Shown here one piece after another: positions 23,554 to 59,604 of a DNA stretch of 64,000 bases. The DNA is from Mesorhizobium sp. Pch-S (GTDB taxonomy: Bacteria; Pseudomonadota; Alphaproteobacteria; Rhizobiales; Rhizobiaceae): contig NZ_CP029562.1 of NCBI RefSeq assembly GCF_004136315.1, positions 5,789,501-5,853,500 on the forward strand, in the 5' to 3' direction. The notes under the pieces were generated by a model, which searched no databases, had not been told where the DNA came from, and worked only from the letters and a program-made list of their open reading frames with translations. A program made the position numbers and the translations under genes. Each line of letters opens with the position of its first letter. Positions within the stretch are counted from its first letter, which is position 1.

Positions 23554-24726
23554 CTAGCGCAGCCAGCCGACCGCCAGCTCCTTGACCGCATCCGCCGCGC
23601 GGCGCGGCAGCGAACCGACTTCCACCGTTTCGGCGGCGAACACCGGGGTTTCCTGACTCAACGTGTCGCCAATCCAGACGCGCAGCGTGCCGACAGGCTG
23701 GCCGACCTCGACAGGCGCCGGTAGCGGGCCGTTGTAGACGATACGCGCTGTAACCTTGTCGCGATTGGCGATCGGCAGGACGAGGTCTATCGCTCCCTTG
23801 GCTTTCAGCGCCACGCCGGATTTGACGCCGCCAAACACCGCTGCTTCGCCAACAACTTCGTCCTTGGCGAAGACTTCGGTCTTTTCAAAGGAGCGCAGGC
23901 CCCAATCCAGCAGCTTGCGGACTTCCTCCGAGCGCTCGCGGTCGTTGGCCAGGCCACTCATGGCAGCAATCACCCGCTTGCCGCCCTGGTTGAGGGCACC
24001 GACAATGGCAAAACCATCCTGTTCACTGGCGCCGACCGCCAGTCCTTCAGCACCGGCATCCATCGCCAGCAACGGGTTGCGGTTGCGCTGGGTGATCTTG
24101 TTCCAGGTGAAATCCTTGAGGGCGAAATAGGGATAGAATTGCGGATACTCGCGCGAGAGGCGCAACGCCAGCAGCGTCATCTCGCGCACCGTCGTCTTCT
24201 GACCTTCCGCCGGCAGCCCGGTAGCATTGACGAAGGTCGAGATCGGCAATCCGATCTGACGTGCGCGCTCGTTCATCTGGAGAGCGAAATTTCCTTCCGA
24301 GCCGGCAAATCCTTCGGCGACGATGATGCAACCGTCATTGGCGGCCTGCACCGCGATGCCCTTCATCAGGTCTTCGAGCCGGATCGCCGACTTGAGCGCG
24401 GCAAACATGGTGGAGGTGCCCGAAGGCGCACCGCCCTTGCGCCACGCATTTTCGCTGACCACGAAGGTGTCGTTGAGCGTCATGCGGCCGCTCTTCACGG
24501 CATTGAAGGCCATTTCAAGCGTCATCAGCTTGGCGAGCGACGCCGGCTGGATCGGTTTGTCGGCCTGCTTGGAGAACAGCACCGTGCCGGTCTCGGCGTC
24601 GATCATATACGCGGTCGCCGCCTTGGTTTCGAACAGCTGCGCGGCCGCCGGCCATGCCGACAGCGCCAGCAGGGAAAGGAGAAACAGGCCTGCCAGAGAA
24701 GAGCAAAAGCGGGATTTGGCAATCAT
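23554..24726 (-). CDS. PBP5-like D-alanyl-D-alanine carboxypeptidase family protein with altered motifs
   Basis: 390 residues with a signal peptide ending AWPAAAQ and a peptidase S11 domain followed by the C-terminal PBP5 domain. The nucleophile motif SLAK (S-x-x-K) is intact. The usual SxN motif reads QAANDG, with Ala where Ser is expected, and the usual KTG triad reads LAVGAS where LKTGxT is expected. It may be a binding or regulatory PBP rather than an active carboxypeptidase. It lies beside rlpA and downstream of nothing obviously co-transcribed. Confidence 0.85.
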   Translation of the reverse strand: MIAKSRFCSSLAGLFLLSLLALSAWPAAAQLFETKAATAYMIDAETGTVLFSKQADKPIQPASLAKLMTLEMAFNAVKSGRMTLNDTFVVSENAWRKGGAPSGTSTMFAALKSAIRLEDLMKGIAVQAANDGCIIVAEGFAGSEGNFALQMNERARQIGLPISTFVNATGLPAEGQKTTVREMTLLALRLSREYPQFYPYFALKDFTWNKITQRNRNPLLAMDAGAEGLAVGASEQDGFAIVGALNQGGKRVIAAMSGLANDRERSEEVRKLLDWGLRSFEKTEVFAKDEVVGEAAVFGGVKSGVALKAKGAIDLVLPIANRDKVTARIVYNGPLPAPVEVGQPVGTLRVWIGDTLSQETPVFAAETVEVGSLPRRAADAVKELAVGWLR

Positions 24727-30026: not shown

Positions 30027-30116
30027 TGGCGGAGGGAGTGGGATTCGAACCCACGGTGACATCGCTGCCACGCCGGTTTTCAAGACCGGTGCCTTAAACC
30101 GCTCGGCCATCCCTCC
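30027..30116 (-). tRNA. tRNA-Ser (anticodon UGA), prophage integration site
   Basis: The complement reads GGAGGGATGGCCGAGCGGTT at the 5' end, an anticodon loop CTTGAAA within CCGGT/ACCGG (anticodon TGA), a short variable arm, the T-arm GTGGGTTCGAATCCCAC, and acceptor TCCCTCC plus G and encoded CCA at 30027-30029. The class II variable arm and G-discriminator are typical of tRNA-Ser. Its 5' half is the phage att core, and everything upstream of it is phage DNA. Confidence 0.97.
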
Positions 30117-30117
30117 A
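30078..30117. repeat. attL core, 40 bp
   Basis: Starts TTTCAAGACCGGTGCC and ends CGGCCATCCCTCCA on the plus strand, covering the tRNA from the anticodon loop to its 5' end plus one base. It is identical to 59565-59604. Confidence 0.95.
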
Positions 30118-34936: not shown

Positions 34937-35063
34937 GATGCAGTGGCTGAGTGGTCTAAAGCTGAAGCCCGAAATGATAAGGGCCTGACCGTCTAGTTTC
35001 CTGGGCTGGCGACGGATAGCCAATAGCTTCGGGAACCGTGGGTTCAAATCCCTACCTGCATCG
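34937..35063 (+). ncRNA. tRNA-like element with a 50-nt insertion in the anticodon arm
   Basis: Acceptor stem GATGCAG (34937-34943) pairs with CTGCATC (35056-35062), and the pairing extends outward to a perfect 12-bp inverted repeat. A canonical D-arm follows: GCT, loop GAGTGGTCTAA, AGC (34946-34962). The T-arm is GTGGG/CCTAC around TTCAAATC (35038-35055), one base longer than normal. The anticodon stem GAAGC (34964-34968) finds its partner GCTTC only at 35026-35030; the loop CCGAAAT would place GAA as anticodon. No CCA is encoded. It may be a decayed or interrupted tRNA, or a tRNA mimic. Confidence 0.45.
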
Positions 35064-56925: not shown

Positions 56926-57318
56926 ATGCCGAACGTCTCCGAGAAGATCGTGAACAGCGTCATCATCACCATGGCGGCAAGGCTCTCCATGGTGCTTGCA
57001 ATCCCGACACTCACCTTCCTGTTCTGGCTCTACACCGGCTGGCAGGCTGAGAAATTCGACAAGGTCCAGGACCAGGTCGAGCAGACGCAGAAAACCGCAC
57101 AGCAGGCCTCGGACCAATCCATCAGGCTTTCCGAGCGCCTGACAACCGTGGAGACAAAGCAGGCCGAGGCGACGGTCTCGAATGAGAGGTTTCAGAACGC
57201 GACGCTCAACCGGCTGGATAGGGTGCAAGACAGCATCGTCGGGCTGTCCAACACGGTCGCGGCGCTGACTGCCACCCTGCAGGCGATCGTCGAGGATAAG
57301 CGTCGCAGGCCGCCGTAA
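56926..57318 (+). CDS. Membrane-anchored coiled-coil phage protein
   Basis: 130 residues from the ATG at 56926 (AGGA seven bases upstream; TTG at 56908 also possible). One transmembrane span (LSMVLAIPTLTFLFWLYTGW) is followed by a long coiled coil (VEQTQKTAQQASDQSIRLSE). It could be a second holin, an antiholin or a superinfection factor; it ends the lysis operon before the terminator. Confidence 0.65.
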   Translation: MPNVSEKIVNSVIITMAARLSMVLAIPTLTFLFWLYTGWQAEKFDKVQDQVEQTQKTAQQASDQSIRLSERLTTVETKQAEATVSNERFQNATLNRLDRVQDSIVGLSNTVAALTATLQAIVEDKRRRPP

Positions 57319-57397
57319 AGGGTGGTTGCGATTTCGGCTCAATGCAGCTATTGGCGCCCCGCGCTTGGCTGTCAGCGAGCGCTCTCAGGCATCAAAG

Positions 57398-57431
57398 GCC
57401 CGTTCCGGTTCACGCCGGAGCGGGCTTTTTT
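57398..57431 (+). terminator. Rho-independent terminator after the lysis genes
   Basis: GCCCGTTCCGG (57398-57408) pairs with CCGGAGCGGGC (57415-57425) around TTCACG, followed by six T. It ends the late operon, so genes and RNA to the right need their own promoter or read-through. Confidence 0.88.
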
Positions 57432-57445
57432 CTGCGTTTGAAGGC

Positions 57446-57856
57446 ACCTGTATCACGCAGGTACCTGGAAGGTATTGCCATGATGGCAATCCCCCGTGTG
57501 CGCAAACACAAGCGCCGCCCCTAAGGGCGTTCTTGCATTTTTAAGCAAATCGGTTGATCGTATCCGTGGGTGTGGAAACCCGGACCGCGATAAGCAGGAC
57601 ATGATTGGCGTCATGTGCGCTGCTGACGCGCTAAGAGACCTTGGCGGGTCTCGATGCGCATAGGTAACGCCTTGGCGGGCGTTCCAACTCGGCTGAATAT
57701 GGCCGGGGGCGAACGCTATGTCCAGAGCGAAAGCTTAAAATCGTTCGACCTGTCTCGCGGCAGGTTTCCACCCCCCGGCTACTGGCCCGCCGCCAGAGAT
57801 AGGAACGGCACCTGTGGAAAGGTGAGCGTTCCCCGGCTGTGGAAGGCCGGTTCTAC
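57446..57856 (+). ncRNA. Candidate structured RNA: chain of hairpins with repeated identical loops
   Basis: This 410-base stretch between the terminator and the next gene holds about a dozen consecutive hairpins. Three six-base-pair stems of different sequence carry the same loop TTGGCG: ACATGA/TCATGT (57599-57616), GAGACC/GGTCTC (57635-57652) and AACGCC/GGCGTT (57666-57683). Three more share GTGGAA: GGGT/ACCC (57568-57581), CACCT/AGGTG (57809-57824, inside GGAACG/CGTTCC) and CCGGC/GCCGG (57833-57850). GGTTTCCAC (57763-57771) is complementary to nine bases of the first GTGGAA hairpin. The strand is assumed plus. It may be a free RNA or the 5' leader of the gene at 57870. Confidence 0.6.
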
Positions 57857-57869
57857 CGCGAGTGAGACA

Positions 57870-58946
57870 ATGACTTCCTACATCCCTGAGCACTATTACG
57901 GGCTTGTCCCGGGCAGCTACCGTGAGCCAGGTGGCGAGCGATATGGCTTGATCCCATGGCCGGCGCATATGAGGCCGCAACAGCAGCCGAGCTATGCTCC
58001 CCTGCCCGATATCGACCTTCGGCAACTCTTCGGCGAAACGGAAGGTATCGAACTCACCAAGAAGGGTGAGGCCTATGCCGAGGCGGCGAAGACTGACGTG
58101 TTCTTCCTGCGCATTACCCCGAAGGACCGGACCAGCATTGCCTATACGATCGAGAGCCTGATCAACCTCCTCGACGCTATGGAGCCTGATCCCGATCTGG
58201 AGCCAGATCTCGGCAGCGGCGACGACCGTGAAGGAAATGGCGGCGCTGAAGGCGGCGACGAAGATCGTGAACCATCCTTGGGCTGGTCAGCCGATGGTCA
58301 GGTCGGTCAAAACCCCGCTTGGTGCAATTGCTGGGGTGAACTCGAACATGACGATGCGGATGATGAATTCACTCTCGGATGGGAGAAGGGCTCAATGCCC
58401 TATGATCAGACGTATCTGAATATGTTCGGTACCGACGAGGCCGAAGACGTGTCGGAAGATGAAGGGGCCACCACGGGCGACGATGAGTACTCGCTCGGGA
58501 CAACCGAGGAAATAGATCAAGAACGCCGGCAGGATGTGGCTGAAGGCTATTTCATCCCCGACGGAGAACCGTACTTGGGCTGGGCCGAATCGTTCGGCCG
58601 TGGCGTGGTCGGCGAACAGGACTGCCTCGACGATCGCGAACACGAGGATGAACGGGAACAAGATCAGGCGGAGATGGGCATCGCCGATCAGGATGCCCTG
58701 CAAGACCCTGGCATCTGGCCTTCGCACCTACCGACGTTCCCAGGCTGCAAGGGTGCAGTCGATTTCCAAGGCGACGGAGTTCGTGAGGCCAACGCGATGC
58801 TGAAAAAGGCCCGTGCCCAACAAGCAAGGCCGAGCGCGTCACCCAATATCATAAATCTCCGCAACTTCGCGCCCACGGATGACGACATCCTGTCGCTGGA
58901 CATGCTGGCTCACTACCGCGCAGCCCATGGACAACGCCCATGCTGA
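57870..58946 (+). CDS. Acidic repeat protein with E-P-x-L-G-W motifs (phage cargo)
   Basis: 358 residues from the ATG at 57870. The N-terminal 110 residues (YIPEHYYGLVPGSYREPGGE, GEAYAEAAKTDVFFLRITPK) are followed by a very acidic low-complexity region. Four imperfect copies of a short motif occur there: EPSLGW, EFTLGW, EYSLGT and EPYLGW, separated by Asp/Glu-rich stretches. Similar EPSLGW-bearing hypothetical proteins are, as far as I recall, scattered in rhizobial genomes. No function is known. It lies after the terminator with the hairpin RNA in its leader, typical of cargo genes. Confidence 0.7.
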   Translation: MTSYIPEHYYGLVPGSYREPGGERYGLIPWPAHMRPQQQPSYAPLPDIDLRQLFGETEGIELTKKGEAYAEAAKTDVFFLRITPKDRTSIAYTIESLINLLDAMEPDPDLEPDLGSGDDREGNGGAEGGDEDREPSLGWSADGQVGQNPAWCNCWGELEHDDADDEFTLGWEKGSMPYDQTYLNMFGTDEAEDVSEDEGATTGDDEYSLGTTEEIDQERRQDVAEGYFIPDGEPYLGWAESFGRGVVGEQDCLDDREHEDEREQDQAEMGIADQDALQDPGIWPSHLPTFPGCKGAVDFQGDGVREANAMLKKARAQQARPSASPNIINLRNFAPTDDDILSLDMLAHYRAAHGQRPC

Positions 58947-59564: not shown

Positions 59565-59604
59565 TTTCAAGACCGGTGCCTTAAACCGCTCGGCCATCCC
59601 TCCA
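59565..59604. repeat. attR core, 40 bp
   Basis: Identical to 30078-30117. It is the original 5' half of the host tRNA-Ser gene, now without its 3' half. Confidence 0.95.

Follow-up and report, generated by a model that had tools for sequence, protein, structure and literature searches.

A probable C4-type antisense RNA in the leader of a putative cargo gene of alphaproteobacterial prophages

Introduction

As has been described for phage P1, the C4 RNA is cut by RNase P to ~77 nt, represses in trans and carries two short antisense sequences, b', which pairs over ribosome-binding sites (RBS), and a', which serves specificity; the C4 RNAs of P1 and P7 are separated by a difference of 4 nt (PMC5320573). 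The GenBank record of P1 gives the order promoters, a1, b1, C4 RNA, a2, b2 and icd. Further accounts cover P1 immI (PMC8198154), C4 and heteroimmunity (PMC12197685), and the tabulated motifs c4 and c4-a1b1 (PMC2864571). Antisense RNAs that are cut from a leader and pair with copies on both sides of themselves also include the P4 CI RNA, which pairs with seqA upstream and seqC downstream of itself, and IsrK of Gifsy-1 (PMC4825925). The element described here is likened to P4 CI by plan, not by sequence, with the difference that in P4 it is transcription termination that keeps the replication genes off.

A second described RNA, sRNA-Xcc1, was mapped as an 88-nt RNA in Xanthomonas campestris, running at ~100 nt on a Northern blot (PMC2996969), and has homologues in Xylella with computed targets (PMC12189769). 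In the Xanthomonas integron cassette with the widest distribution it precedes symE, an arrangement described as "suggesting a divergent regulatory mechanism" (PMC12444791). In the passages retrieved from the one library searched, its mechanism is left open or predicted by computer, no text ties it to a C4-like mechanism, none describes such an RNA in alphaproteobacteria, and the sole paper found to name both RNAs lists them in an annotation table.

Results

Setting and anatomy of the element

The element lies near the end of a probable prophage of ~29.5 kb, with genes for integrase, terminase, head, tail and endolysin, in the window (the whole 64-kb stretch of DNA that was analysed). An exact 40-base repeat, at 30078-30117 (across a tRNA-Ser) and 59565-59604, probably represents the att sites that mark the prophage. 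The element is placed after the lysis genes and an intrinsic terminator-like hairpin with a T-run (57393-57430, by eye; this and all features below are on the + strand), ~1.7 kb before the right repeat, in the leader of an ORF whose ATG, at 57870, the RNA reaches. The stretch with this hairpin (57400-57440) recurs alone in the genus (L006, L007, L009-L011 and L016), with one further copy in the same genome (L017). At Rfam cut-offs the window returned only tRNA matches, all elsewhere than the element, so that the covariance-model search that had been suggested for it left it below every cut-off. There is also a weak Rfam tRNA match inside the prophage (34937-35063; 32.6 bits, 127 nt) that ARAGORN does not report.

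The original prediction had described a chain of hairpins sharing two kinds of loop, and both sets of loops are where it placed them, with TTGGCG hexaloops starting at 57605, 57641 and 57672 and GTGGAA loops starting at 57572, 57814 and 57839. The hairpins are real, but they belong to one organised unit rather than to a loose chain. A promoter-like site (TTGCAT, 17 bases, GATCGT; 57533-57561, by eye), with a TTG box at similar spacing in most of the aligned upstream regions (by eye), would start transcription near 57568. Two further hairpins that had been counted as part of the RNA, ATTGCCA-tga-TGGCAAT (57474-57490) and CGCCC-ctaa-GGGCG (57516-57529), are present but lie upstream of this site and are probably outside the RNA.

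Based on alignment and covariation (see below), a 5' hairpin (57563-57584) presents the sequence a1 (GTGGAAA, 57572-57578) and is followed by the single-stranded b1 (CCGCGA, 57585-57590), which covaries with b' and b2. The three UUGGCG hairpins, identified from loop counts, form a spacer (57598-57690), after which a core domain at 57701-57780, supported by alignment, fold, covariation and a sub-threshold sRNA-Xcc1 match, is likely to be the processed antisense RNA. The core is closed by a stem (57702-57709/57772-57779) and contains an arm (57710-57715/57742-57747), a GAAA tetraloop hairpin (57726-57735), a hairpin with a CCTG/CAGG stem presenting b' (TCTCGCGG, 57753-57760) in which stem and b' both covary (57749-57764), and the single-stranded, covarying a' (TTTCCAC, 57765-57771), which is complementary to a1 and a2. 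The proposed pairing of 57763-57771 with GTGGAA, to which this stretch is complementary, is upheld. Beyond the core there is a hairpin with compensatory pairs (57782-57796), an extra hairpin found in only some relatives that carries a third a copy (GTGGAAA, 57814-57820; hairpin 57802-57832), and a 3' hairpin (57833-57850; from sequence and alignment) presenting a2 (GTGGAA, 57839-57844), which equals a1 in six of seven bases. The sequence b2 (CCGCGAG, 57856-57862) sits, as judged from the spacing to the ATG, at the Shine-Dalgarno position of the putative regulated ORF (57870-58946), which encodes an acidic protein of 358 aa with no Pfam or PHROG match.

Relative to dinucleotide shuffles, the predicted fold of 57426-57870 is lower in energy by 5.3 s.d. 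on the + strand and by 5.8 s.d. on the - strand, so folding energy alone does not choose the strand. In the minimum free energy (MFE) fold of the leader, the core is paired with a1-b1 and most of b2 is free, which corresponds to an open state, and the two modules have similar predicted pairing energies (-26.7 and -24.5 kcal/mol).

Relatives and their shared layout

BLAST in related genomes returned diverged fragments of the element, and BLASTN of the element in phages and in plasmids returned no match. A pattern drawn from the fragments was found in 13 viral stretches, 31 stretches in named genomes and nine places in 8 of 146 genomes of the genus, and a reversed control pattern had zero matches in the genomes listed. 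The sources of the relatives include the alphaproteobacteria Mesorhizobium, Bradyrhizobium, Shinella, Nitrobacter, Paracoccus, Wenxinia, Hansschlegelia and a Sphingomonadaceae bacterium. Removal of duplicates left 42 elements (hereafter the window group), 38 with a complete core, and 37 were used for covariation; the five left out were L021, L048 and L062 (by eye, 5' remnants that lack a core), L038 (truncated at a contig end) and L033 (a2 differs). The 5' modules without a core (L021/L014, L048 and L062, by eye) are probably decayed remnants in Mesorhizobium and Bradyrhizobium.

Complete elements share the order promoter-like site, a1 hairpin, b1, UUGGCG spacer, core, a2 hairpin, b2 and ATG. 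The core is in most cases closed by GGCCGGGG/CCCCGGC; inside it, an arm bearing a small hairpin is followed by the hairpin that presents b' in its loop and by a'. With a1-b1 at the 5' end and a2-b2 over the RBS, the a-b module is thus present twice and its antisense once, in the middle. The ATG lies 6-11 bases past the b2 hexamer in 34 of the 37 elements, the exceptions being L047 (5 bases), L060 (20 bases) and L071 (no ATG). At least two exact a copies follow a' in seven of the 37, and the window has its third a hairpin there. An exact two-module search of the fetched DNA returned both of an element's own modules in 32/37; one or no module was returned for the window, L050, L029, L044 and L045, all of which have a degenerate or shifted a or b. 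Additional a-b matches with loose spacing (four in the window, one each in L044, L047, L057 and L059) look like chance. A second hairpin, CCYGRCC-AUUAU-GGCCGGG (alignment A3 columns 3-23, 96-102), competes with the closing stem of the core and in L035 changes along with it (by eye), a possible further switch.

Covariation and diversity of the a/b address

In a composite alignment of the 37 elements, tested against 60 null alignments in which each column's substitutions were replayed on the tree, the a1/a'/a2 and the b1/b'/b2 sequences change together. The top covarying pairs fall among a1/a'/a2, among b1/b'/b2 and in the b' stem, and weaker pairs rank below these (e.g., E 0.08 for the tetraloop hairpin). 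The variable b column, which played no part in choosing the elements, is complementary at both partners in 37/37 elements, and three a columns are likewise complementary in 37/37. For these three the figure holds partly by selection, since only exact matches to a1 were taken as a' and as the second a copy; that location rule excluded no complete-core element on a' and one (L033) on a2. A fourth a column pairs in 36/37 and 35/37. None of the 60 null alignments reached the value of any of these columns. For the window, the extra hairpin (57814-57820) was substituted for a2 in this test. Six pairs of neighbouring columns in the a address likewise reached E=0 against the null without forming base pairs, because an address changes as a unit. 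Independently, RNAalifold predicted 21 core pairs, 14 of them with double changes, and the selection on RNA structure that had been proposed from the single sequence is thus borne out by stems that are compensated among relatives. Separately, a C/T before a1 and a2 changes with a G/A at the foot of the b' hairpin (columns m5:5, core:71 and x3:-2; 37/37 complementary, E 0.2), a possible tertiary pair.

A protein-coding explanation was tried and rejected, as no reading frame is favoured through the region: the frame of the downstream gene is open for at least 60 codons back into the RNA in eight of the 37 elements, against 7/37 and 4/37 for the other two frames.

There are 22 a/b types among the 37 elements. 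Near relatives in the window group often share an address, and of the 11 pairs whose cores outside the loops are at least 85% alike, five have the same address and six differ. Amongst sRNA-Xcc1 loci (see below), divergence is greater in the paired loops than elsewhere in the core. None of 81 pairs from within a genome have both loops in common; the same holds for all 1810 pairs between genomes, so the within-genome figure fits chance as well as immunity. Three genomes (G456, G274 and G568) hold nine, six and five sRNA-Xcc1 matches, respectively, each match with a different a'/b' pair. The diversity of addresses fits selection for separate specificities better than a simple cis switch.

Downstream ORFs and gene neighbourhood

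The ORFs behind the RNA differ widely, and the 34 that have at least 25 codons span 28-390 residues, with some truncated where a contig ends. An acidic region with an ERLI..LLD..DPDLE motif occurs in about a third (by eye) and several have twin-arginine-like signals; a scan of 34 (33 plus L068) against Pfam and PHROGs gave no match for any. Ten further downstream proteins included five tyrosine integrases, one serine recombinase, one capsid protein and three without a match, and ten upstream proteins comprised two terminases, a portal, two tape measures, an HNH endonuclease, a ParB-like protein, one PHROG of unknown function and two without a match. The phage neighbours vary (e.g., the L035 element is sandwiched by terminase and capsid genes), so the element occupies different places in different phages.

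Comparison with sRNA-Xcc1

The window element matches the Rfam family sRNA-Xcc1 (RF02221) over its full length below threshold, at 25.9 bits against a cut-off of 53. At relaxed thresholds L032 (31.1 bits), L058 (28.4 bits) and L071 (26.7 bits) also match, and together with the window these have E-values of 0.04 to 0.5; searched alone, the L032 element reached E 0.0014. There was no match for L072 at relaxed thresholds and none for L057, L066, L045 and L029 at Rfam gathering. In the other direction, a core model built only from the window group (R1) matched 24 of 30 sRNA-Xcc1 loci at E<=1, 17 of them at E<=0.01, and missed L111, L112, L118, L122, L128 and L139. Recognition is therefore mutual, sub-threshold on the Rfam side, and the two groups share the same core fold and the same layout of a1b1, b'a' and a2b2.

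Of 398 Pseudomonadota genomes, 57 carried the sRNA-Xcc1 family, 39 of these above the cut-off; 14 control genomes had no match. The 70 hits that were fetched gave 60 loci after removal of eight duplicates and two with poor closing stems. A two-part complementary match of at least 11 bases to the locus's own b' loop and a' was present upstream in 49/60 and downstream in 33/60, on both sides in 27 and on neither in five, compared to 6.7% upstream and 3.4% downstream when flanks were swapped. In most of the downstream matches b2 lies at the Shine-Dalgarno position before an ATG. The 19 ORFs behind sRNA-Xcc1 that were scanned included SymE (two), Bro-N (two), KilA-N, P22_AR_N and Rha (two), with 11 lacking a Pfam match; ten of the 19 had been chosen by eye, and the other nine, scanned later, had no match, three of them being only 30 codons long. 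Behind L126, which is above the sRNA-Xcc1 cut-off, is an acidic DDPDLEP/EPSLG protein that resembles the window-group proteins (by eye).

Within the genus, R1 identified 48 places in 42 of 146 genomes. Amongst 22 diverged Mesorhizobium copies taken from these places, a downstream match was present in 18 and an upstream match in 13, with nulls of 16% and 8%, respectively. A subgroup of Mesorhizobium copies (L095, L096, L098, L102, L103 and perhaps L099, L100 and L106) has the target over the RBS and no convincing upstream a1-b1, and in some of these there are repeats like TAGGCG..CGCCTA upstream and a different gene behind (HKDQ.MPSLV, by eye).

Comparison with C4 RNA of phage P1

C4 (RF01695, c4-a1b1) and the window element have the same order of promoter, a1, b1, core, a2, b2 and start codon. 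As in C4, a' and b' of the element are complementary to a2 and b2 over the RBS of the next gene on the same strand, and there is an upstream a1/b1 copy. In the RNAfold prediction for P1 C4 the closing stem comes first, then an arm capped by UUCG, then a hairpin that has b' partly in its loop and partly next to it, and last the single-stranded a'; RNAfold gives the parts of the window core in this same order. The sequence UAU directly precedes the first GG both in P1 C4 RNA and in 26 of 37 element cores, and a variable a/b address is common to C4 and the window group. Sequence similarity is nearly nil: there is no match to Rfam C4 at gathering, nor at E<=10 for 57200-58000, and R1 scores the P1 C4 region at 4.3 bits (E 0.28). 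The target genes also differ, with icd-ant in P1 and cargo ORFs without a known-family match here, none of the 34 matching an icd or antirepressor, and the third a hairpin sometimes found in the window group is unlike C4. Based on shared order and fold with so little shared sequence, the same working plan as P1 C4 is well supported and common descent is plausible.

Discussion

Proposed mechanism and competing explanations

The element is probably an antisense RNA of the C4 type, a new variant from alphaproteobacteria, which sits in the leader of a cargo ORF and silences it. This reading rests on the anatomy, the triple covariation, the position over the RBS and the layout common with P1 C4 and sRNA-Xcc1. 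From these we infer transcription, processing, antisense action in trans and a role for a1-b1. A single transcript from near 57568 would contain a1-b1, the UUGGCG spacer, the core and a2-b2 over the start of the cargo ORF, from which, by analogy with C4 and sRNA-Xcc1, the core may be freed as an RNA of ~80 nt. Its b' loop and a' would pair with b2 and a2, hide the RBS and keep the cargo ORF off, with the a1-b1 copy competing for the same core. The role of a1-b1 may be to pair first on the nascent transcript, such that the ORF stays open, or to be a further target at which transcription ends early, in the manner of P4 seqA. Concerted changes of a and b at three sites would keep each element self-specific. 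Because a1-b1 holds the core in the predicted leader fold, the transcript may be open while it is being made, and repression may depend on processing or on RNA provided in trans.

Several results fit this C4-type reading poorly, namely the Rfam searches with no match above cut-off, the low score of P1 C4 with the alphaproteobacterial model, the heterogeneous downstream ORFs (0/34 with a Pfam or PHROG match, unlike icd-ant), the spacer interval with UUGGCG hairpins and, by eye, no intrinsic terminator, the open state of the MFE leader fold, the six non-pairing column pairs of the a address that beat the null, the 5/37 elements, window included, for which the exact search did not return both modules, and the Mesorhizobium copies without an upstream copy. 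One alternative is a purely cis-acting leader switch, in which the antisense module pairs with a1-b1 (ON) or a2-b2 (OFF) within the same molecule and no RNA acts in trans, the choice being made by a ligand, a protein at the UUGGCG loops or folding kinetics. Such a switch, which we regard as rather unlikely, would account for mutually exclusive pairings that are conserved on both sides, for the similar energies of the two modules, for a second competing hairpin (CCYGRCC/GGCCGGG, by eye) against the closing stem and for close alphaproteobacterial relatives that often have one address (5/11 pairs at least 85% alike elsewhere). It offers no evident reason why 22 a/b types should occur in 37 elements with three sites changing together, or why the paired loops of sRNA-Xcc1 should diverge more than other parts of its core, and the sRNA-Xcc1 core is known as a separate 88-nt RNA (PMC2996969).

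The very strong fold and the repeated UUGGCG loops are also what would be expected of a structured noncoding RNA that acts by itself and to which the ORF is merely adjacent, and both a CsrB-like decoy and a GOLLD/ROOL-like RNA had been put forward in the original prediction. GOLLD and ROOL are both families in Rfam 15, and neither matched the element at gathering or at relaxed E, which leaves that comparison without support. A CsrA/RsmE decoy of the CsrB/RsmZ type is unsupported because relatives have other bases in place of the loop's GGA (GTAGAAA, TTAGCAA, CTGATAA and GTCGAAA) with complementarity to a' kept, and types without GGA predominate. With the distance from b2 to the ATG fixed in 34/37 elements despite heterogeneous ORFs, and with no Rfam match above cut-off, a self-acting RNA of any kind is very improbable. 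The inverted repeats might instead be DNA sites (an operator, att or recombination folds), for which it speaks that GTCC/GGAC flank the start region in most relatives, partly preceding the predicted start, and that elements lie at different places in phages. Such DNA sites are hard to reconcile with an antisense relation that reaches across ~190 nt, draws on loops as well as single-stranded stretches and stops at a start codon, and the 40-bp att-like repeat is elsewhere (30078-30117 and 59565-59604), such that this explanation is extremely unlikely.

If the C4-type reading is extended across the three groups, P1 C4, sRNA-Xcc1 and the alphaproteobacterial phage RNA may constitute one superfamily of self-addressed silencing leaders, a proposal whose chances we regard as evenly balanced. 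Each such leader would travel as a mobile cassette whose processed antisense core, bearing an address in two parts, represses whatever gene follows, be it an antirepressor, SymE or unknown cargo. Diversification of the address would keep resident copies apart from incoming ones. Were this the case, sRNA-Xcc1 would be chiefly a repressor of its neighbour gene and not a general virulence regulator. The shared layout suggests a concrete, testable target for sRNA-Xcc1. The element extends to alphaproteobacteria, in diverse temperate phages, a kind of RNA described from phages of enterobacteria, and the concerted change at three sites makes specificity and immunity directly testable.

UUGGCG hairpins of the spacer

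The spacer interval differs between the groups, with UUGGCG hairpins in the window group and an apparent intrinsic terminator in P1 and many sRNA-Xcc1 loci (by eye); between b1 and the core of the window element no intrinsic terminator was seen by eye. The three hairpins of the element are the only + strand TTGGCG hairpins with at least five pairs in the 64-kb window, which has one on the - strand, at 23834. Across the 37 elements there are 82 TTGGCG hexaloops closed by four Watson-Crick pairs, compared to seven for TTGGCA and one for the next, and 88 TTGGCG hairpins have 29 distinct 4-bp stems. The UUGGCG hairpins are a strong signal and a possible protein-binding or loop-receptor motif.
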